A stretch of 31,966 bases of DNA. Origin: a virus. A model generated the notes under the pieces. It searched no databases. It was not told the origin of the DNA and worked only from the letters and a program-made list of their open reading frames with translations. The translations under genes and the position numbers were made by a program. The stretch spans positions 1 to 31,966 of IMG/VR virus record IMGVR_UViG_3300036791_000363; one strand, given 5' to 3'. Below, in pieces: positions 3,584 to 26,046 of this stretch; within the stretch, counting starts at the first letter, position 1; each line of letters opens with the position of its first letter.

Positions 3584-3819
3584 GCGCCGGCCTCGGGGTA
3601 GGGCAGGCCGGCGAGGTAGGCGACGGCGACCGCGAGCGGCCATAGCGCCTTGCGCTCTTCCTCGACGAGCCAGCCGGCGGTGAGCGCCGCGACGAGCAGG
3701 TGTGCGTTATCGACGCCGACCGCGACGATCGCGTAGTCGGCGGCGATCGTCGCGGAATCGAACGGGTCGGGGTTCGGCGCGCGCCTCGAGGCGAGCGGCC
3801 CGTCGGGATAGTCGCTCAC
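3580..3819 (-). CDS. hypothetical protein, 79 aa (integrase operon)
   Basis: The start GTG 3819-3817 overlaps the integrase stop in a GTGA. The product begins MSDYPDGPLASRRAPNPDPF. It has a moderately hydrophobic middle and end (AIVAVGVDNAHLLVAALTAG, WPLAVAVAYLAGLPYPEAGA) that could be one or two weak membrane helices or a buried helix pair. The coupling implies co-expression with integrase. I do not recognise the family. Confidence 0.7.
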   Translation of the reverse strand: MSDYPDGPLASRRAPNPDPFDSATIAADYAIVAVGVDNAHLLVAALTAGWLVEEERKALWPLAVAVAYLAGLPYPEAGA

Positions 3820-5141
3820 GCGCCGGCCCCCATCGCGGCGCGCAGCCCGTCGGGTGCGGCCTCGGCGAGCGAGCGCGCGACGCGACGGGCGCGGTCGCCC
3901 TGGTCGTAGATCGCGCGGATCAGGTCGCCGCCGTCGGCGTGCCCGACACGGGCGGCGCAGTCGGCCTCGGGAACCCGTAGGTCGCGCATGAGCGTCACCG
4001 CGGTCGCGCGGAGGTCGTGCGTCGTGATCGTGCGCCGCCCGTCGTCCGAGGCCTTCCTGCGGCCGTCGACGGCCTCGTCGGCGGGGTCGACGTACCACTC
4101 GAACGGCGTCGCCGCCTGCTCGTCGAGGCCGCGCTCGGCGCGCCAGTCGGCGGCCGCCGCGCGGACGGCCGGCTGCCACACGAGCCGATCGAATTGCGTG
4201 TGCCGCCACGGCTGCGGCCCTGCGGCGGTCCGGAGCACGGTGCCGGTGTCGTAGACGCGGACGCCGGCGGTGAGGAACGCTCGAGGCGAGCCGGCCGGTG
4301 TCGCCGGGCACCCGGCGGTCGGGCTCGAGGCGTCGACGAGGCGAAGGGTGCCGGCGAGCTGCTCGCGTGCGAGCGCGACCTCTTCGGGTGTGAGCGGGAT
4401 GCTCTTCGCGACCCGCTCTTTGCAGTTCGCGGCCGGGACGAAGAGCACGGGCGCGGGCCGGCCGTGCTCGTCGACGGCGTCGAGCTCGAAGTGGTCGGGC
4501 TCGGCGAGGAAGAGCTCTTCGATCCGGTTCCCGACGGTGCCCTGCAGGAGCACGAGCCGCCGCGCGACCTGCGGGACGCGGGCGGCGAGGTAGTCGAGCT
4601 CGGCGACGGTGAGCGCGCGCCGGCGGCGTGCCGCGACGCGGATCGTCGGGATGCGGAGGATGCCGAGGTCGAAGGTTGCGCCGTCCTCGGCGGCGAGCTC
4701 GAGCGCGGCGATGAGCGCGGCGCGTTCGTTCCGAGCTGAGGTCGGCGCCTCGAGCTGCCGGGCTCGCAGGGTCGCCCGAATGCGCTTGCGTGCGAGCAGC
4801 GAGAGCGGCGTCGAGGCGTGCTCGCCTTCGCGCCACGGCCGGAGCGACCGCTGCCAATACTCGAGGCCGCCCTTCGAGAGCGGCTTGCCGCGCTTCCCGG
4901 CGGTCCTGAGCTCGGCGAGCAGCGCGTCGCAGGCCTCGGCGAGCGTCGGGTCGCCGTCGCTCTCGTTCGGCGGTAGCCCGAGCTCGCGGCGCTCGTCGAG
5001 CTCGAGCGCGCGACGGTTCGCCTGCGCCGGCGTGTCGAAGAACTCGATCACGCGGCCGTAGGGTGCGGGGAAAGACTTGCGGACACGGAGCCGATCGCGG
5101 TGCCGGTCGACGCCGGGGAGAAGAGTCGCGCTAGAGGTCAC
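3816..5141 (-). CDS. int: tyrosine integrase
   Basis: This 441-residue recombinase should join attP to a host tRNA gene and, with Xis, reverse the reaction. The catalytic set is visible: R206 in GTVGNRIEEL, K246 in CKERVAKSIPL, H375 and R378 in THDLRAT, H401 in VGH, and nucleophile Y412 in IYDQG. The N-terminal 60 residues are the likely arm-binding domain and about 65-165 the core-binding domain. The start is GTG 5141-5139 with an AAAGGGG ribosome site and a GTGA overlap with the xis stop. A 17-bp palindrome (5155-5171) lies just upstream of the start. Its target is probably the tRNA-like core at 3076-3098. Length and motif order are normal, so it looks functional. Confidence 0.95.
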   Translation of the reverse strand: MTSSATLLPGVDRHRDRLRVRKSFPAPYGRVIEFFDTPAQANRRALELDERRELGLPPNESDGDPTLAEACDALLAELRTAGKRGKPLSKGGLEYWQRSLRPWREGEHASTPLSLLARKRIRATLRARQLEAPTSARNERAALIAALELAAEDGATFDLGILRIPTIRVAARRRRALTVAELDYLAARVPQVARRLVLLQGTVGNRIEELFLAEPDHFELDAVDEHGRPAPVLFVPAANCKERVAKSIPLTPEEVALAREQLAGTLRLVDASSPTAGCPATPAGSPRAFLTAGVRVYDTGTVLRTAAGPQPWRHTQFDRLVWQPAVRAAAADWRAERGLDEQAATPFEWYVDPADEAVDGRRKASDDGRRTITTHDLRATAVTLMRDLRVPEADCAARVGHADGGDLIRAIYDQGDRARRVARSLAEAAPDGLRAAMGAGA

Positions 5142-5365
5142 GACTGCCCCTTTCTGTCTAGTAAGTGGACAGATGGGAGTGTAGCGGGTTCGCCGATGTA
5201 GCGCTCGAGCTCCGAGCGGGGGACGCGGGTTGAGCGGCCGAGCTTGACGACGCGCAGCCGGCCGGCGGCTATGTCGCGGTGCAAGGTCGAGCGGTGCCGC
5301 TTCGTGAGCTTGCTCACCTCGGCGATCGTCAAGAGCTCGAGCGGGTCGAGGTGCGCCTCGGTCAC
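5138..5365 (-). CDS. xis: excisionase-like HTH protein
   Basis: The 75-residue product is a MerR/AlpA-like winged helix-turn-helix: LLTIAEVSKLTKRHRSTLHR (residues 11-30), a wing RLRVVKLGRSTRVPRSEL, and a short tail. Proteins of this size placed directly before an integrase usually bend attachment-site DNA and set the direction of recombination. The start GTG 5365-5363 and the stop both sit in GTGA overlaps, so it is coupled to the genes on either side. Residues 21-28, TKRHRSTL, are identical to residues 134-141 of the plus-strand PAS regulator (6136-6786), which suggests shared DNA specificity. It could instead be a plain transcription regulator. Confidence 0.8.
   Translation of the reverse strand: MTEAHLDPLELLTIAEVSKLTKRHRSTLHRDIAAGRLRVVKLGRSTRVPRSELERYIGEPATLPSVHLLDRKGQS
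5155..5171. promoter_or_regulatory. 17-bp palindrome, candidate operator (copy 1)
   Basis: TGTCTAGTAAGTGGACA fits TGTCYA-N5-TRGACA and recurs as a second version at 23806-23822. It lies inside the 3' end of xis, about 14 bases before the integrase start, where a bound protein could limit integrase expression or act as an architectural site. Only two copies were found by eye. Confidence 0.45.
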
Positions 5366-5583
5366 GACTCGTCCGCGGTGAGCTCGAGCGCGATCGCGGC
5401 GAGCGCGTGCGCGACCGCGACCTGGACGGTGAAGTCGAAAGTCTCGTTGAGCGCCTTGATCTTCCCGGTCACGGCCATTTCGAGGTGCTTCTCGGGTGAG
5501 ACCTCGCGGAAGTCGCGGGTCGCGCGCTCGAGGTTCTCGAGCAGCTCGCTCGCGGTGATGGCATGTTCGCGGGCATCGCTCAT
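5362..5583 (-). CDS. hypothetical protein, 73 aa (before xis)
   Basis: The start is ATG 5583-5581 with only a weak ribosome site; the stop overlaps xis in a GTGA. The product begins MSDAREHAITASELLENLER and continues with ATRDFREVSPEKHLEMAVTG, then NETFDFTVQVAVAHALAAIA. It is a mostly helical acidic protein without membrane or metal motifs. It is the first gene after the 20-bp tandem repeats, so its transcription is probably controlled there. I do not recognise the family. Confidence 0.7.
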   Translation of the reverse strand: MSDAREHAITASELLENLERATRDFREVSPEKHLEMAVTGKIKALNETFDFTVQVAVAHALAAIALELTADES

Positions 5584-5630
5584 TCGGGTCTCGAAGCTAG
5601 CGCGCTCGAGCTCGCGTGCATAGCGCCGCG

Positions 5631-5690
5631 CCGCGGCGCACGACGGCGCGCCTAGGCGCACGACGGCGCGCCGCGGCGCACGACGGCGCA
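5631..5690. repeat. three tandem 20-bp repeats, candidate operator array
   Basis: Three head-to-tail copies of CCGCGGCGCACGACGGCGCG lie at 5631-5650, 5651-5670 and 5671-5690. The second copy differs in its first few bases (CCTAGG) and the third in its last base. They fill the gap between the small HTH gene (5708-5941) and the first gene of the xis-int run. A 20-base period is about two helical turns, suiting cooperative binding of a regulator on one face. There are no spacers, so this is not a CRISPR. Confidence 0.7.
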
Positions 5691-5707
5691 CGGTGACGCG
5701 CGCGGAA

Positions 5708-5941
5708 TTAAGCGCTCGTTCCGCGGTTTTCGTCGTCGCGTTCGCGTTCGAGCCGGCGCGCCTCGGTGAGCAGCTCTTGCACGCGCGTCGCGCTCACGCC
5801 GGCCCAGGGTGCGATATCGCGCACCGATTCGCCCGATTTGTTCGCGGCGAGGATCGCGTCGCGGAGCGCGATGCGTGCGGCCTCGAGCCGCCGAGCGGCG
5901 GTGCGCACGCGACGAAGGTCTCTCTGCGCCAAGCGTTCCAC
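5708..5941 (-). CDS. small HTH DNA-binding protein, 77 aa
   Basis: The product has a basic helical start (RDLRRVRTAARRLEAARIAL) and a helix-turn-helix of the form SVRDIAPWAGVSATRVQELL, followed by a charged helix. The start is GTG 5941-5939; a TAACGT box at 5959-5954 would place transcription very close to the start, perhaps leaderless. It shares its layout and many residues with the 77-residue protein at 23269-23502, so the two look paralogous. It sits divergently from the PAS regulator across a 194-base control region, the classic position of a lysis-lysogeny partner. I infer it regulates the minus-strand operon or the 20-bp repeats. Confidence 0.75.
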   Translation of the reverse strand: MERLAQRDLRRVRTAARRLEAARIALRDAILAANKSGESVRDIAPWAGVSATRVQELLTEARRLERERDDENRGTSA

Positions 5942-6135
5942 CTATCAAGCCGCACGTTACGCTCGCGCCGGTGTGCGGGAAACCGCACGGGCGGGGAAAC
6001 ACGCAAAGAGCGAAAACCGGCCGGTCGGAGGGGTTGACGGCTAGTTGCGATTCGCACTATCGTCGCGCCCGTGTTGGCGAAGTAGACGCGCCTTTGCGGC
6101 GGGCTAACTTCGGGGGGAAGGCTGCTACCGAAATA
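5942..6135. promoter_or_regulatory. divergent control region between HTH gene and PAS regulator
   Basis: This 194-base stretch separates the only divergently transcribed pair in the genome. It holds a minus-strand -10-like TAACGT at 5959-5954. A perfect inverted repeat GTGCGG-GAAA-CCGCAC lies at 5973-5988 and could be an operator or hairpin. The plus-strand promoter candidate is at 6034-6063. Its third-position pattern and A-rich patches mark it as non-coding. Confidence 0.65.
6034..6063 (+). promoter_or_regulatory. candidate promoter for the plus-strand PAS regulator
   Basis: TTGACG at 6034-6039 and TATCGT at 6058-6063 are separated by 18 bases, matching the actinobacterial TTGAC-N17/18-TANNNT pattern. 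Transcription would start near 6070, leaving a leader of about 65 bases before GTG 6136. Confidence 0.6.
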
Positions 6136-6786
6136 GTGGTGCGCCATGTTGAGCAGCTCGGCGCCTTCGTGCTCGTGTTCGACGGCGAGCTCATCGTGCG
6201 CGGCGTTAGCGAAGAGCTCGCTGCGCAGCTCGGCGTCGAGGCCGGCGCGCTCATCGGGCGGCCGCTGCTCTCGCTCGTCGACGGGAACCCGACGCGCACG
6301 GCTCGCCTTATGCGGCAGCTCGAGCGGACGGGCAGCGTGAGCTCGGTTGCCGCGCTTGTGACGAGCGACGGCGAGCGGGTCGGGTTCGCATATACGACGC
6401 GCGCGGTCGGCGACCTCTTCGTGTCGGCCGGCGAGCTCGTCCCGTGGACGCTCGCGACGGCGCACGAGCTCGCGCACGTCGAGCTCGAGCTCGCCGGCGA
6501 CGCTTGGCTCACGAAGGCCGAGGCGTGCGCGTATACGAAGCGGCACCGGAGCACGCTCGAGCGTGCGACGGGGAACGGGGAGCTCGAGGCGGGAGGTTCG
6601 CCGGGTAAACGCATGTACCGCCGGAGCGCGCTCGACGCTTGGCTCGCCTTTGGCTTGATCGTGCTGATCTTGTTCGCGCTCATACTCGCGGCCGAGCTGC
6701 TCGGCCTGGTCGTGCCGGGCTCAGGCGCGCCGAAGGCCGCGCATCACCTTGTCGAGCTGCTCGCGCGCTTCTGGCAGCGCGGTTAG
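6136..6786 (+). CDS. PAS - winged-helix - transmembrane regulator (candidate immunity repressor/sensor)
   Basis: This is the only plus-strand gene. Residues 8-100 read as a PAS sensor domain (FVLVFDGELIVRGVSEELAA, then GALIGRPLLSLVDG and VGDLFVSAGELV). A helical linker at 101-122 carries HELAH (110-114). An excisionase-like winged helix follows at 124-170 (WLTKAEACAYTKRHRSTLER). Then comes a hydrophobic span at 171-193 (FGLIVLILFALILAAELL) and a short amphipathic tail. TKRHRSTL is shared exactly with the phage Xis. I chose GTG 6136 because G/C-rich third positions start there; GTG 6139 is also possible. A purine-rich GGGGGGAAGG lies 14 bases upstream, farther than ideal. Its isolated divergent position suggests the lysogeny repressor, tethered to the membrane and tuned by a signal. 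That role is inference. Confidence 0.75.
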   Translation: MVRHVEQLGAFVLVFDGELIVRGVSEELAAQLGVEAGALIGRPLLSLVDGNPTRTARLMRQLERTGSVSSVAALVTSDGERVGFAYTTRAVGDLFVSAGELVPWTLATAHELAHVELELAGDAWLTKAEACAYTKRHRSTLERATGNGELEAGGSPGKRMYRRSALDAWLAFGLIVLILFALILAAELLGLVVPGSGAPKAAHHLVELLARFWQRG

Positions 6787-7076
6787 CGCGGCGGCAGCTC
6801 GGCGGTGTCGTCGAGCTCGTCGCGGCGCGAGGCCTTCGGTCTCGGCGATCCGTGACCGTTGCCGGCGCGGAACCCGAGGTAGGCGCCGAGGATCCCGAAG
6901 ATGCCGCCGAACGCGGCGATCAGCACTTGCGTTTCGTTCTCGGTGAGCGTCGCGGCGGTCGAGCCGTGCTTGATTGCCCCCCAGACGACGCCGGCGATGA
7001 GGATGATCATCGAGACGGCGACGCCGGCGGCGAGGATGATCGCGACCCAATCGCCGGCGGCGAACTTCGTCTTCAC
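6783..7076 (-). CDS. holin-like membrane protein
   Basis: The 97-residue product has two membrane helices: WVAIILAAGVAVSMIILIAG (about 10-29, extending further) and VLIAAFGGIFGILGAYLGF (about 51-69). A polar, charged tail follows (RPKASRRDELDDTAELPPR). The start GTG 7076-7074 overlaps the endolysin stop in a GTGA. Placement directly after a CHAP endolysin and two-helix topology fit a holin, which would permeabilise the membrane and release the endolysin at a set time. The gene ends 4 bases inside the convergent PAS regulator gene. Another role for a two-pass protein here cannot be excluded. Confidence 0.85.
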   Translation of the reverse strand: MKTKFAAGDWVAIILAAGVAVSMIILIAGVVWGAIKHGSTAATLTENETQVLIAAFGGIFGILGAYLGFRAGNGHGSPRPKASRRDELDDTAELPPR

Positions 7077-8008
7077 TCGGCGACGCGGACGAACACGGTC
7101 GCCTGATCTTGAACGCGGCGGGTGCAGCGGAGCACTTGCCCGCCGTTCGAGTAGTTGCTCGCCGAGGTGTTCCCCTCGATCGCGGTGAACGTCGAGCTCG
7201 AGCCCGCCTGCCACGCCTCGAATAGCCCGACGTGGTCGTATTCGGCGCCGGTGCCCTGCCAGTCGTAGCAGACGAGGTCGCCGGGGATCGGGTCGTCGGT
7301 CGTCTGCAGCCCGTAACGGCCTGCTCGAGCGTCGGCGACGATGTAGGGGACGTAGGCGTAGCGTGCCGAGCTCGGGTCGAACGTCGGGCTATCGTCGGGC
7401 GCGGCGGTCTCGTAGGCCCAGGTGCAGAAGATCGCGCACCACGGGACGCCGTTCGAGCCGTACCACGCGCCGTATGGCTGCAGGTTCGAGCCGGCCGGGT
7501 TCTCGGTCCTGCCGAGCTCGCCGGTCGCGTGCTCGAGCGCGAGCTCGCGCAGCGTGGAGCTCGCCGCCGGCGGCGGCTCGTGCCCGCCGAAGAGCTCGAA
7601 GGCCTCGTCGACGAGCGCGGCGGCGTAGTCGTCCATCGCGGGTTCGCCGGCGTGCGGCAGCCCGTCGGGCACCCGTATCGACCGTAGGGTGTTGAAGGTT
7701 TTCTCGCCGACCCATCCGGTCGCGTCGAGGTGTTGCTGCCGCTGCACGCCGGCGATCCCGGTGTCGGCCACGTTGCCGCCCTTCCCGTGTGAGAACCCGT
7801 TCGAGAAGGCGTCGTCGAACCGCTGCCACGGCCACCGGCCCGCCCTCGAGACCGTGCGCTTGTAGGCGAGCACGTCGGGCCCGTCGACGCTCGGTGTCTT
7901 GCCGTGCCTCGAGGCGTCGGGCGGGTACAGCGGGCGCGGGAACCCGGCGACCTTGACCATCGGGCCGCCGGGGTACCCATGCTGCCACCACTCACTCGTC
8001 GTCGTCAC
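7073..8008 (-). CDS. CHAP-domain endolysin with peptidoglycan-binding domain
   Basis: This 311-residue lysin should cut peptide bonds in peptidoglycan. Residues about 44-112 resemble a peptidoglycan-binding repeat (GIAGVQRQQHLDATGWVGEK). A linker follows, then a CHAP domain at about 155-311 with nucleophile C191 in GVPWCAIF, H259 in DHVGLFEAW and an acidic or amide partner in AIEGN (278-280). There is no signal peptide, so export depends on the holin at 6783-7076, coupled by a GTGA overlap. The start GTG 8008-8006 lies 17 bases inside the preceding acidic gene; M17 is an alternative start. It is distinct from the lysozyme-like protein at 1807-2313. Confidence 0.92.
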   Translation of the reverse strand: MTTTSEWWQHGYPGGPMVKVAGFPRPLYPPDASRHGKTPSVDGPDVLAYKRTVSRAGRWPWQRFDDAFSNGFSHGKGGNVADTGIAGVQRQQHLDATGWVGEKTFNTLRSIRVPDGLPHAGEPAMDDYAAALVDEAFELFGGHEPPPAASSTLRELALEHATGELGRTENPAGSNLQPYGAWYGSNGVPWCAIFCTWAYETAAPDDSPTFDPSSARYAYVPYIVADARAGRYGLQTTDDPIPGDLVCYDWQGTGAEYDHVGLFEAWQAGSSSTFTAIEGNTSASNYSNGGQVLRCTRRVQDQATVFVRVAE

Positions 8009-13328: not shown

Positions 13329-13963
13329 CATGCTCCCTTCGTGGTCGTGAGCAGCTCGCGCGCGCGCTGCTCGTACAGTCGACGGTTTGTGCGGGTCGCG
13401 GCGGTCGTAGCGGCGGGCGCCGCCGACGAGGTCGCGCCGAGTTTGTGAACGAGCCCGACCCGGACCTCGCGTAGCCGCATCCCGGCGGCGCGCGCCTCGA
13501 GGCATAGGACGTTGTCGGAGTAGTAGGCCGGCTCGGCGAGCTGCTCGTCGAAGCCGCCGAGCTCGACGAGCTCGTCGCGCATCCCGGCGATGCACCACCC
13601 GTCGAGGTAGGGGATCACGTTGCCGTCGACCGCGGTGTGCGGGTCGATCCGCAGCCGGGCGCCGGCGAGCACGCCGGGCTCGACCTGGAAGGTGAGCTCG
13701 TCGAGCCACCCGAGCTCGGTCGCCTCGACGTCGTTGTTGAGGAACACGACGACGTCGGAGCTCGCGTGCTCGAGCCCGACGTTCGAGCCGTGCGCGAACC
13801 CGGTGTTCTCGTCGAGGCGGATCGTGGCGAACTCGAGCGGCGGCCGGCTGCCGTTGTCGACGACGATCGCCTCGTCGGGCGCCGGGCCGAGCTCGAGCGC
13901 GCGCCAGTAGTCGTCGGTGAGCTCGAGGTGCTCGAGCCACGGCGTGACGACCGCGACGGTCAC
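13328..13963 (-). CDS. GT2-family glycosyltransferase
   Basis: The 211-residue product reads as a compact GT-A glycosyltransferase. It has an N-terminal strand VTVAVVTPWLEH, IVVDNGS at 33-39, NTGFAHGSNVG at 53-63, and the metal-binding LNND motif at 75-78. Family members move a sugar from a nucleotide-sugar donor to protein, lipid or glycan. It is coupled to a GT4 enzyme before it (GTGA at 13963) and to the major tail protein after it. The position suggests glycosylation of tail or capsid subunits, known in some actinophages. Cell-surface modification of the lysogen is the main alternative. Confidence 0.88.
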   Translation of the reverse strand: MTVAVVTPWLEHLELTDDYWRALELGPAPDEAIVVDNGSRPPLEFATIRLDENTGFAHGSNVGLEHASSDVVVFLNNDVEATELGWLDELTFQVEPGVLAGARLRIDPHTAVDGNVIPYLDGWCIAGMRDELVELGGFDEQLAEPAYYSDNVLCLEARAAGMRLREVRVGLVHKLGATSSAAPAATTAATRTNRRLYEQRARELLTTTKGA

Positions 13964-15180
13964 GCCTGCACACTTTCGGGACGGCCGGCACGACTTTTGG
14001 GACGGCCGCCGTTGAGCGGCCCGACCTCGCGGATCGGTGCCGGCGACGCGAGCGCCTCGAGCGCCGGCCGCCAGTAGGCGTCGGTGACGAGGTCGGCGTC
14101 GTAGCCGGCGGCGAACGCGACCGCAGCCGCCCTGAGCTCGACGTCGTCGCGCGCCTCGTAGGCGGCCTCGAGCGCCTCGACGATCGAGTCGATCGCCGGC
14201 ACCACGAAGAACGATTCCTGCAGCGCATCCCACCACGGGTCGCCGCGCACGAGCCACCCGGCGCCGCAGAGCTCAGTCATCGCGGAATGATTCGAGGTGA
14301 TGACGGGCACGCCGCAGGCCTGCGCCTCGATGAGCGGGATGCCGAACCCTTCGCCCATCGATGGCATCAAGAGCGCGTCGAACATCTGATAGATGCCGGC
14401 GACGACGCGCGGCGGCGCGCAGAGGTCGAAGAGTTTCGGGTCGGGGAACTTGACGCGGTCGACCGGCGCGCCGACGGCGCCCGTCAAGAGGTCGAGGTCG
14501 ATGCCGCCGCCGGCGGTCGGCGTCGACCGGGTGTGGACGTACAGCCAGGCGTCCGGGTGCTCGCGCGCGAACCGTGAGAAGGCGAGGAAGGCCTGCGGGA
14601 ACGCTTTGCGCGGCAGCGCCGCGGTGCCCTGATTCGCGCCGACCATGCCGACGAGGAAGGCGTCGTCGGGTATCCCCAGGCCGGCGCGGTAGTCGGCGCG
14701 GAGCTCGGGCATCGGCCGGAAGAGCTCGGTGTCGACGCCGTGCGGAACGTACAGCGGCCCGAGCCCGAAAGCCTCGAGCTGCGCCTCGCCGAAGCGGCTC
14801 ATCGCGATCGGCCGCACCCGTTGATCCGAGAGCACCTTGAGCACGAGCGGCGGGACCGGGTAGTGATCGATCGGCGCCCAAACCGCGGCCTCGAGCCCGT
14901 CCGGCCAAAGGTCCGGCTGCAGCACCCAGGCGTCGCACAATGCGATCACGAGCTCGGCGTCGTGATGCTCGGCGTAGGTCTCGAGCCCCTTGTTCCCCCA
15001 GGCGCCGTCGGTCGGGTAGATCGTGAGCCCGCCGGCGTTGATCGTCATCGACTGCACGCCGTAGTTGCAGGCGACGGCGAGGTCGTGCCCGAGCTCGGCG
15101 ATCCGCGGCAGGAAGAGCGAGGCCTGCTCGCCGTACCCGGACCCGACGCCGGGCGCGTTCCCGAGCCAGAGGATTCTCAT
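13960..15180 (-). CDS. GT4-family glycosyltransferase
   Basis: The 406-residue product has two Rossmann-like halves of a GT-B enzyme. The first starts MRILWLGNAPGVGSGYGEQA. The second has HGVDTELFRP (147-156) and the donor-binding E-x7-E signature in GEGFGIPLIEAQACGVPVIT (E277 and E285). It should retain anomeric configuration while transferring a sugar. The C-terminus is basic (GGRPKSRAGRPESVQA). The start ATG 15180-15178 overlaps the tail terminator stop in an ATGA and the stop overlaps the GT2 gene. It is thus built into the structural operon and expressed with late genes. Confidence 0.92.
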   Translation of the reverse strand: MRILWLGNAPGVGSGYGEQASLFLPRIAELGHDLAVACNYGVQSMTINAGGLTIYPTDGAWGNKGLETYAEHHDAELVIALCDAWVLQPDLWPDGLEAAVWAPIDHYPVPPLVLKVLSDQRVRPIAMSRFGEAQLEAFGLGPLYVPHGVDTELFRPMPELRADYRAGLGIPDDAFLVGMVGANQGTAALPRKAFPQAFLAFSRFAREHPDAWLYVHTRSTPTAGGGIDLDLLTGAVGAPVDRVKFPDPKLFDLCAPPRVVAGIYQMFDALLMPSMGEGFGIPLIEAQACGVPVITSNHSAMTELCGAGWLVRGDPWWDALQESFFVVPAIDSIVEALEAAYEARDDVELRAAAVAFAAGYDADLVTDAYWRPALEALASPAPIREVGPLNGGRPKSRAGRPESVQA

Positions 15181-15626
15181 CGCACCATCACGACGCGCCA
15201 CTCGACGCCGAGCAGGTTGCCGGCGCCGCCGGGATCGATGTAGACGATGTGACCGGACGGCCCCTCGACTCGAAGGTCGCCGATGAGGCCGCCGAGCGTT
15301 GTGTCGGCGTAGATCGCGGCGGCGACCGAGAGCGGCGAGCTCGAGTCGATCATCTGCAGGAGTAGCTCTTGCCCGCCTTCGTTCTCGGCGGTCGACACTC
15401 GAGCGCGGACGGTGAACGCGACCTCTTGCTCGCGGTAGCCCATACTCGTCTGCTCGGCGAACGGGTCGCCGGGGTAGACGTCGACGACCGGCGGCGTCGG
15501 GTTGAAGAGCCGGATGCCGGCGACCTGCAGGTCGGGGATCGCGTCGTCGCCGTCGAGGCCGGCCTCGACCTGGTCTCGCAGCGCATAGGCGACGTCGAGC
15601 AGCGCCGCCTTCGCGACCGCGCTCAC
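15177..15626 (-). CDS. probable tail terminator/tail completion protein
   Basis: The 149-residue product begins VSAVAKAALLDVAYALRDQV and continues with AGIRLFNPTPPVVDVYPGDP and EQEVAFTVRARVSTAENEGG. It ends with a strand-rich LLGVEWRVVMVR. This alpha-plus-beta layout and the position after the head-tail connector and before the major tail protein fit the tail terminator that caps the tube. I chose GTG 15626-15624 for its GTGA overlap; an ATG 12 bases upstream is possible. Its normal neighbour, the major tail protein, is displaced by the two glycosyltransferase genes. Confidence 0.7.
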   Translation of the reverse strand: MSAVAKAALLDVAYALRDQVEAGLDGDDAIPDLQVAGIRLFNPTPPVVDVYPGDPFAEQTSMGYREQEVAFTVRARVSTAENEGGQELLLQMIDSSSPLSVAAAIYADTTLGGLIGDLRVEGPSGHIVYIDPGGAGNLLGVEWRVVMVR

Positions 15627-23853: not shown

Positions 23854-23943
23854 TTAGCCCCAGCCGTAGAAGTAGGCGAGCGCGACGAACACGGCGATCA
23901 CCACGAACGCGACCTCGGTGAGCGTGATCGGCCCGACCTTCAT
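23854..23943 (-). CDS. 29-residue membrane micro-protein
   Basis: ATG 23943-23941 overlaps the methyltransferase stop in an ATGA, and the frame ends at TAA 23856-23854. The product begins MKVGPITLTEVAFVVIAVFV and ends ALAYFYGWG. It is a short polar start, then one membrane helix and an aromatic end. Third positions are almost all G/C and the overlap matches the genome's pattern, so it is likely a real protein. Tiny single-pass proteins often modulate larger membrane proteins; the partner is unknown. Confidence 0.7.
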   Translation of the reverse strand: MKVGPITLTEVAFVVIAVFVALAYFYGWG

Positions 23944-24497
23944 GCGGTCGAGGGTAGCGCGACGTGGACGATCCCGAACCCGAACCCGCCGGGCTCGACG
24001 ATCGTCTCGGTGTCGTGCCCTTGCTCGAGCTCGGCCCATAGCCGGTCGACCTCGATCGTCGGGTCGGGGGTCGGGGTTATGTCGTGCAGCACGACGAGGC
24101 CGCCGGGTGCGGCGAGCGCACCGTAGGCCTGCCAGTCGCGGCGGACGCTCTCGAGGTAGTGGTCGGCGTCGATGTAGACCCATTCGTACGGGCCGAGCGC
24201 GGCCGCTTGCGAGATGACGGTCGTGTCGCTCGAGTCGCCTTCGATCACGACAAGCTCGGTGCCGTCCTGCATCCACTCGGGGTAGAGGTCCCGGTTATCG
24301 CGGTGCAGGTAGGTGTCGATCGCGACGACGACCGTGAGCGGTGGAAAGGGTGCGGCGTGCGTGAGCCAGTGGTAGAGGGTTCCGCCGGCGAAGGTGCCGA
24401 CCTCGAGCACGCGCCGCGGCCGCCGCGCACGGTAGAGGTCGACGAGCCGCTCGAGCTCGAGCTCGTGCTGCAGCACCTCGACGGGGGTCTCGATCAT
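23940..24497 (-). CDS. class I SAM-dependent methyltransferase
   Basis: The 185-residue product has SAM motif LEVGTFAGGT (31-40), an acidic strand end in VVVAIDTYLH, IDADHYLESV (109-118) and GGLVVLHD (132-139). This is the layout of CmcI/Methyltransf_24-like O-methyltransferases. D109, D111 and H112-D139 type residues could bind a metal. There is no DNA-methyltransferase DPPY motif, so the substrate is probably a sugar or small molecule. The coupled glycosyltransferase before it (ATGA at 24497) suggests methylation of the same glycan. Confidence 0.85.
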   Translation of the reverse strand: MIETPVEVLQHELELERLVDLYRARRPRRVLEVGTFAGGTLYHWLTHAAPFPPLTVVVAIDTYLHRDNRDLYPEWMQDGTELVVIEGDSSDTTVISQAAALGPYEWVYIDADHYLESVRRDWQAYGALAAPGGLVVLHDITPTPDPTIEVDRLWAELEQGHDTETIVEPGGFGFGIVHVALPSTA

Positions 24498-25015
24498 CGC
24501 TCGCCTCGCTCGTGCGCCGGCCTGCCGACGAGCGCGATCGCGACCGGGTGCAGCACCGGCTCGTCGCCGCGGAGCTCGAGCGTCGAGCTCGCGAAGTCGT
24601 AGTCGCCCTCGTAGCGGTTCCCCCAGGTGCCGAGCCGGCCGGCCTGGTTCGGCACGACGAGCATCTGCGTCGAGACGTACCCGACCTGCAGCGGCAGCGG
24701 GCCCGGCGCGAGCTCGCGGCCGTCGTGGTAGCGCATCGCGAAGAGGTGCACCCGGTCGGGGTCGAGCTCGAGCTCACGCCGCACGAGCTCGAGCGCGCCG
24801 CCGAGGTGCCGGTCGTCGTCGTCGATGAACATGAGATGAGAGCCGGCGCACCGCGGCATCGCGCGGTTACGCGCCGTGTGCCCGTAGTCGCCGCTCGAGT
24901 CGCGGACGATCACGAGCTCGTCGCCGTGGGAGAGCTGCGGCACGAGCGCGCCGACGGTCTCGACGACCGAGCGGCGCCCGCAGGTCGGGATCACGATCGA
25001 GAGCGTGACGCTCAT
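24494..25015 (-). CDS. GT-A glycosyltransferase (GT2-like)
   Basis: The 173-residue product starts MSVTLSIVIPTCGRRSVVET, the usual nucleotide-binding start of GT2 enzymes. It has a metal-binding acidic run FIDDDD (63-68) after RNRAMPRCAGSHL. The C-terminal half contains YVSTQMLVVPNQAGRLGTWG and YEGDYDFASSTLEL, typical acceptor-side elements. It is shorter than most GT2 enzymes. It is coupled by ATGA overlaps to a repeat protein before it and a methyltransferase after it. Together they probably build and cap a sugar on virion or host surface. Confidence 0.88.
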   Translation of the reverse strand: MSVTLSIVIPTCGRRSVVETVGALVPQLSHGDELVIVRDSSGDYGHTARNRAMPRCAGSHLMFIDDDDRHLGGALELVRRELELDPDRVHLFAMRYHDGRELAPGPLPLQVGYVSTQMLVVPNQAGRLGTWGNRYEGDYDFASSTLELRGDEPVLHPVAIALVGRPAHERGER

Positions 25016-25305
25016 CCGGCGCGCACGGTCGGCTTCGCGTAGGGGATCAGAACCGGCGGTAGCCAGACCCAGCGGATCGGGGTTAGCACCTCGACGGCGA
25101 GCTGCGTGAGGCGCGCCTGCGGCTCGAGCGGGTAGAGCACCTCGATCGCGAGTTGGGTGATGCGGCCGCCGGGCTCGAGCGGGTAGAGGGTCTCGACGGC
25201 GACCTGCGTGACGAGGTAGTGCGGAGTCGGCGGCGGCGGCGCTGTCGCGTCGCCGGCGCCCTCTCCGGGGTACGGCTGCCCGAAGGGGTAGACGCCGAGC
25301 GACAA
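25012..25305 (-). CDS. 97-residue protein with 17-residue repeats
   Basis: Three near-identical units, VTQVAVETLYPLEPGGR (32-48), ITQLAIEVLYPLEPQAR (49-65) and LTQLAVEVLTP (66-76), follow a Pro/Gly-rich start (GVYPFGQPYPGEGAGDATAP). The DNA repeats with a 51-base period. The units look like short beta hairpins that could stack or trimerise. The start is TTG 25305-25303, directly after the previous stop. Its place between fibre genes and the glycosyltransferase suggests a small fibre or virion component; I do not know a function. Confidence 0.7.
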   Translation of the reverse strand: MSLGVYPFGQPYPGEGAGDATAPPPPTPHYLVTQVAVETLYPLEPGGRITQLAIEVLYPLEPQARLTQLAVEVLTPIRWVWLPPVLIPYAKPTVRAG

Positions 25306-26046
25306 TCAGGCCTTGACGAAGCGGACGTAGGAAGGCGCGTCGGCGCCGCCGGTGCCGGTGCCCGAATGGAACGTGCCGTTGCCGCCGCTCGCTACGCACG
25401 TCAGCAGGTAGGTGTGGCTGCCTGCCGACGGCGTGAACTTGAAGCGGGTGTATTGCCCGATGATGATGTTCGCGGCCGCCGCGGTGAACACGACCGCGAC
25501 CGCTGCGATTTGTGTTGAGCCTTCGGTGAGGTAGACGCGCAGGTTCGCGCCGACCGAGACTCCCGGCTGCAGCCCGGTCACGTTCACCTCGGCCCAGACG
25601 GCCGCACCGTCGAAGGTGTGCGCGGCGCAGGTGAGGCAGGTCGTGCCGGGCGCGCTGGTCGCGGTGACGGTCGTGTTCGCGGTGGTTTGGTCGTACCCGA
25701 TTTCGGTGCCGCTGCCGCCGCTGCTCAGGCCGGCCTCGATATCGGTGAGGGTCTTGGCGGTGATCGTCGCGGCGATTTGGTCGCCGGCGACGACCGTGCG
25801 CGCGCTCGAGCTCTCCTGCGCGCGGGTGATCGTGAGCGTGTCGGTCGAGATCGCGGTCACCCGGACGATTTCGGCATTCGCGACGGTCGGGTTCGCGCCG
25901 GTCGGCCAGACGGTCGCGTTGAACGGCGGGGTCGGGAACTTCGCACCGTCGCCGCTCGTGACAACGAGCGAGGTGCCGCTCGTCGCCGGCGACGGCGCCG
26001 TCGCGACCGCCGAGTAGGCGAAGTTTTTGTGCGCGTCGACGGTCAC
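25306..26046 (-). CDS. tail fibre or receptor-binding protein, 246 aa
   Basis: The start is GTG 26046-26044 (GTGA overlap). The N-terminal 100 residues (VDAHKNFAYSAVATAPSPAT, TSLVVTSGDGAKFPTPPFNA, DTLTITRAQESSSARTVVAG) form a beta module often found at the start of phage tail or fibre proteins. A Gly/Ser hinge near 108-112 follows. The C-terminal 130 residues are a beta-sandwich-like domain (VNVTGLQPGVSVGANLRVYL, FTPSAGSHTYLLTCVASGGN) likely to contact the host surface. No enzyme motif is seen. Confidence 0.7.
   Translation of the reverse strand: MTVDAHKNFAYSAVATAPSPATSGTSLVVTSGDGAKFPTPPFNATVWPTGANPTVANAEIVRVTAISTDTLTITRAQESSSARTVVAGDQIAATITAKTLTDIEAGLSSGGSGTEIGYDQTTANTTVTATSAPGTTCLTCAAHTFDGAAVWAEVNVTGLQPGVSVGANLRVYLTEGSTQIAAVAVVFTAAAANIIIGQYTRFKFTPSAGSHTYLLTCVASGGNGTFHSGTGTGGADAPSYVRFVKA

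Follow-up and report, generated by a model that had tools for sequence, protein, structure and literature searches.

What controls the lysogeny switch of a phage in which no cI-type repressor is recognizable? The question arises for a 31,966-nucleotide stretch of DNA from a phage whose clade is uncultured (positions 1 to 31,966 of IMG/VR record IMGVR_UViG_3300036791_000363), here called the window, in which the gene at 6136-6786 is the only confidently coding one on the plus strand. A first-pass annotation, made from the letters alone, had described its product as a PAS, winged-helix and transmembrane protein that could serve as a membrane-anchored lysogeny sensor. We propose that this 216-residue protein is a membrane-tethered one-component regulator of the phage lysogeny switch that binds the divergent control region beside its gene, a reading drawn from sequence and structural modeling to which we assign a probability of about 0.55.

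Architecture of the 216-residue protein

The open reading frame at 6136-6786(+) has codon-position G+C values of 0.75/0.48/0.88, which is coding-like for a 70% G+C record. The PAS-only relative in record L108, with a start codon that aligns at most two residues off, supports the GTG start. The PAS domain comprises residues 5-103 (6148-6444). PF08448 (PAS_4) matches residues 5-85 with an E value of 6.9e-5 and 23.5 bits, narrowly above the cut-off of 23.1, and PF00989 (PAS) matches at E 5e-4, under its cut-off. A single-sequence structure prediction was poor (pLDDT 52), and an alignment-based AlphaFold2 model was used instead, with a 10-row input of the protein, its PAS relatives and Xis orthologues. 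This model has a mean pLDDT of 83 and values of about 90-95 over most of the PAS core. Its N-terminal strands and helices follow the PAS order, and solved PAS domains align to it (VIA-align) with Z scores of 13-14.7 and an rmsd of about 2-3 over roughly 93-118 residues. Foldseek returns 640 PDB chains at E <= 0.001, the top ones being PAS/LOV domains. As modeled, the domain is a PAS fold, so the PAS assignment of the first-pass annotation holds in both structure prediction and profile search. The PAS core contains no Cys, His or Trp (Cys and His checked over residues 11-103); the lack of Cys and His speaks against LOV photochemistry and a His-ligated haem. The remaining options would be a small organic molecule as ligand, a different cofactor, or no ligand at all.

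A linker helix (residues 106-119, 6451-6492, with a low-confidence end in the model) precedes a winged helix-turn-helix of the HTH_17 family at residues 124-171 (6505-6648; Pfam E 5.4e-9, 36.6 bits against a cut-off of 27). The excisionase/regulator family phrog_66 matches the protein at E 0.003, and the excisionase model TIGR01764 scores 22.2 bits, under its curated cut-off of 28.8. Pfam searches of the protein gave no match to GerE, the LuxR-type HTH, nor to HTH_3 or Peptidase_S24.

The predicted transmembrane helix, residues 171-193 (6646-6714), begins where the winged helix ends. The best 19-residue Kyte-Doolittle mean is 3.0, at residues 175-193. Of 16 other proteins in the window, 14 stay at about 1.6 or less, and the two that exceed this value, a holin-like protein and a putative transglycosylase, have membrane-type segments themselves. 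In the model, residues 163-188 form one continuous helix that starts as the winged domain's final helix and continues as the hydrophobic span, followed by a turn and a strongly amphipathic C-terminal helix at residues 199-215 (6730-6780; hydrophobic moment 0.77). Four positive residues shortly before the span (Lys158, Arg159, Arg162 and Arg163) would fit an N-in orientation. From hydropathy and the conservation of the span in a relative (L107), we infer that the protein inserts into the membrane. The HTH abuts the predicted span almost without a linker, which may limit its access to DNA. The order of PAS, winged helix and membrane span that had been read from the translation is borne out by the Pfam matches (PAS_4 and HTH_17), the AlphaFold2 model and hydropathy, and it recurs in L107.

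Genes and candidate control sites around the PAS gene

On the side away from lysis, the minus strand carries an integrase (3816-5141; phrog_1, E 8.7e-17), a Xis-like HTH_17 protein (5138-5365; Pfam E 1.9e-11, TIGR01764 over cut-off), a small protein with no assigned function (5362-5583) that is conserved beside the PAS gene in L107 and occurs also in L124, and a 77-residue small HTH protein (5708-5941; phrog_5497, E 1.6e-5) encoded divergently from the PAS gene. On the other side, a minus-strand gene for a holin-like membrane protein (6783-7046; hydropathy 2.86, relatives near packaging genes) converges with the PAS gene and overlaps its end by a few bases, followed by a CHAP endolysin gene, also on the minus strand (7073-8008; PHROG endolysin E 2.7e-24, Pfam CHAP). 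Further out, the minus strand carries the structural, packaging and recombination genes. Other plus-strand open reading frames that look coding all overlap minus-strand ones, which upholds the lone orientation noted earlier for 6136-6786. Elsewhere in the window are two glycosyltransferase-like genes (13960-15201, phrog_2170, E 1.7e-34; 24494-25399, phrog_14775, E 1.8e-5) and two DNA methyltransferase-like genes far apart from each other (725-2176 and 23940-24497).

The first-pass annotation had seen no cI-like repressor with a classic HTH and cleavage domain elsewhere. Profile searches of the window record indeed gave no HTH_3 or Peptidase_S24 match, although the record is linear, so a repressor outside the contig is conceivable. 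The annotation had, however, overlooked the small HTH gene at 5708-5941(-), which could encode a repressor or Cro equivalent and is an alternative candidate; the Xis-like HTH_17 gene at 5138-5365(-) and the direct repeats at 5635-5689 had been missed as well.

A divergent intergenic region of 194 bases (5942-6135) separates the PAS gene from the small HTH gene. It contains the sigma-70-like promoter TTGACG-18-TATCGT (6034-6063, plus strand), pointed out previously, which our motif scan confirms as the only promoter-like match within 5100-7200, where shuffled sequences average 0.1. The lone orientation favors the PAS gene as the one expressed in the lysogen. Candidate operators in this region include three CCGCAC half-sites (5950, 5973 and 5983) and, at 5964, a single near-exact copy of the repeat motif. 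A second set of sites, three exact 15-bp copies of GGCGCACGACGGCGC with 20-bp spacing (5635-5689), sits in the gap separating the gene at 5362-5583 from the small HTH gene, and could be a binding array for HTH_17 proteins or part of attP. The candidate operator motif CGCACNNCGGCGCG has only three exact matches, all in 5637-5977, the sites from which it was derived; allowing up to one mismatch gives 8 matches against 7.1 expected, which is chance level, and a 12-of-14 match within the divergent region would arise by chance about 1 time in 20 by a rough estimate.

That the PAS gene adjoins the holin-like and endolysin genes and converges with them would suit a moron or a lysis-timing regulator unrelated to lysogeny, just as a PAS core that can form neither a LOV adduct nor a His-ligated haem would suit a dimerization module that senses nothing. 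We consider either version very unlikely, because the gene has its own predicted promoter, lies beside xis and int at a site that in relatives falls among small regulators, and has PAS counterparts in the lysogeny regions of those relatives.

PAS and HTH_3 genes in related phages

Scans of viral contigs, genome contigs, phages and plasmids with the single protein recovered no relative of it, and alignment-based scans added nothing to the one relative and the PAS records already known. Relatives were obtained only through terminase-linked records, which were then screened using both the protein and profiles. The best terminase E value in a named genome is to an Acidimicrobiales MAG (52% identical). 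Among 396 genomes drawn from that MAG's phylum, which may not be the host's, there was no PAS-HTH_17 fusion and matches were partial, to one domain.

Counting the window, six records of one terminase clade have PAS genes in their lysogeny region. The closest parallel is in L107 (IMG/VR 3300047160_003399, an uncultured phage), where a protein encoded at 1250-1999 is 37-39% identical and has PAS, HTH_17 (E 4.5e-8) and a membrane helix (hydropathy 2.77) in the same order. As in the window, its gene is convergent with an endolysin gene (61% identical) and lies beside an orthologue of 5362-5583. Two places in L107 look frameshifted, a xis-like gene (near 764-866) and the PAS gene at its 5' end (1200-1260), so the absence there of the first 20 residues may reflect assembly; an inverted repeat, CTCTCCGC-5-GCGGAGAG, is present at 1205-1225.

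Other members of the clade distribute these parts over separate genes. L108, drawn from the same metagenome as L107, encodes a 140-residue PAS protein that has neither HTH nor anchor, from a gene that overlaps xis, with int next, and diverges from a gene related to 5708-5941. Since this PAS gene is co-oriented with xis and int and its product lacks its own HTH and anchor, the role may differ between phages. The relatives of the small HTH gene lie at 4675-4956 in L108 and at 4099-4302 in L127. L109, L122 and L123 each encode a helical-PAS protein adjoining a serine recombinase, and in L109 (4694-4870) and L122 (from about 3703) the PAS stop codon overlaps the start of a gene for a single-span protein of about 60 residues. 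This protein is conserved across the two records, which are divergent, and may be a holin or the membrane portion of a PAS pair split into two genes. Fused in the window and L107 and encoded by overlapping genes in others, the PAS, HTH_17 and membrane-helix parts appear to combine in fused or split form within one region.

The coupling of PAS to xis in L108 bears on another explanation, in which the window protein is a membrane-tethered Xis paralogue that acts on the direction of recombination through attachment-site architecture, or antagonizes Xis at shared sites. HTH_17 is the excisionase family, and the HTH of the PAS protein is identical to that of the Xis-like protein at 15 of 26 residues, including TKRHRSTL, so that the two proteins are probably paralogues and may recognize similar DNA; one study (PMC11963761) also describes winged-helix directionality factors that act both in recombination and in transcriptional regulation. 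Still, a complete Xis gene already adjoins int in the window, the PAS gene diverges from the xis-int side under its own predicted promoter, and a membrane anchor would be odd in a recombination factor; we regard this explanation as rather unlikely.

In sister phages, the corresponding position is held by a different family. L111, L125 and L127 carry HTH_3 (Cro/cI-type) genes among small divergent regulators between the lysis genes and xis/int: in L127 and L111 an HTH_3 gene between endolysin and int diverges from a small HTH gene, and L125 has a back-to-back pair of HTH_3 genes that precedes xis and int. HTH_3 profiles have no match in the six PAS-bearing records. Among the 14 records with an endolysin match, HTH_3 is thus found in 0 of 6 with PAS and 3 of 8 others (hypergeometric probability about 0.15, with the three serine-recombinase PAS records, L109, L122 and L123, being close kin), which is only suggestive of mutual exclusion. 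In L110/L010, L112/L009 and L126, xis and int are present and neither PAS nor HTH_3 was found in the region; L112 and L126 have a lone small HTH gene transcribed against xis-int, whose product may be a regulator. Because HTH_3 proteins hold the regulator positions in relatives and the PAS records lack HTH_3, a lysogeny regulator is the best reading of the PAS protein. Position and relatives together support placing its gene in the lysogeny switch; repressor, activator and excision roles are inseparable by sequence.

Proposed role and comparison with known systems

In the regulator that we favor, the cytoplasmic N-terminal PAS domain would dimerize the protein and probably bind a small ligand, the winged helix would bind sites in 5942-6135 and perhaps also the direct repeats at 5635-5689, and the C-terminal helix would anchor the protein on the inner side of the host membrane. 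A lysogen would transcribe the PAS gene alone, from 6034-6063, and the product of this gene would hold down the divergent side that encodes the 77-residue HTH protein, xis and int. A change at the PAS domain or the membrane would alter DNA binding, leading to release or triggered induction. Dimerization, DNA sites, the sign of regulation and the ligand are all suppositions of this scheme, as are repression by the PAS protein, the sensing of a host signal and action while tethered.

A broader version, in which the clade has replaced a Cro/cI-type repressor with a membrane-anchored PAS-winged-helix reader of host metabolite or membrane state that permits SOS-independent induction, is possible though doubtful. 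Prophages studied so far are mostly induced by DNA damage. If the proposal is true, a sensor, a DNA-binding domain and a membrane anchor within 216 residues would provide a compact route from membrane or metabolic state to induction, outside SOS, in a phage group of which some members have no recognizable cI.

PAS-containing phage proteins, a PAS-HTH phage regulator and membrane-bound one-component regulators are already known, and HTH proteins of the excisionase type are very common. Searches of the phage, plasmid and sampled genome collections returned no phage protein in which PAS is joined to an excisionase-type HTH and a C-terminal span, and the open-access literature yielded no phage PAS-excisionase protein or membrane-anchored repressor. 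The suggestion that no described repressor has this layout thus stands, as far as searched, for the anchor and HTH_17, but not for PAS-HTH reading of a host signal, since VqmA of phage VP882 is described as such a reader (PMC8284805).

VqmA is a cytoplasmic quorum-sensing regulator whose PAS domain binds DPO and is needed for dimerization and DNA binding; the target of this regulator, a neighboring small gene, sets off lysis (PMC8284805). In related TF-smORF modules, small genes diverge from the regulator (PMC10432266). The window protein resembles VqmA as a phage one-component regulator with an N-terminal PAS domain, a C-terminal DNA-binding domain, an adjacent small gene and, as proposed here, a place in the lysis-lysogeny circuit, but it has HTH_17 with no GerE match, followed by a membrane helix, and no cI was found in its record. 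With a ligand-type PAS fold and a divergent small gene, as in the VP882 and TF-smORF phages, it might instead be an activator, or the controller of an antirepressor, that turns on the 77-residue HTH gene, whose product would act on a repressor or on lytic promoters. We judge this unlikely: the record holds no detected cI for such a pathway to inactivate, the lone orientation suits a lysogen-expressed gene, and the 77-residue protein, unlike the described smORFs, looks DNA-binding itself, which makes a repressor/Cro-like pair as natural as an activator/antirepressor pair.

Excisionases and winged-helix directionality factors (TIGR01764, HTH_17; RdfS, PMC11963761) share the DNA-binding family of the window protein, which differs in fusing HTH_17 to PAS and a predicted span and in being encoded apart from the int-adjacent xis. 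The HTH_3 regulators of L111, L125 and L127 match the PAS gene in their divergent position between lysis genes and xis/int, but they have an unrelated DNA-binding fold, with no PAS match and no span reported. cI/LexA-type repressors combine HTH_3 with Peptidase_S24, and the window protein has neither. Like ToxR and CadC, it places a DNA-binding domain and a (here predicted) membrane span in one chain. ToxR and CadC have their OmpR-type winged helix at the N terminus, after which come the span and a periplasmic sensor, whereas in the window protein the sensor and the HTH both lie N-terminal to the predicted span.
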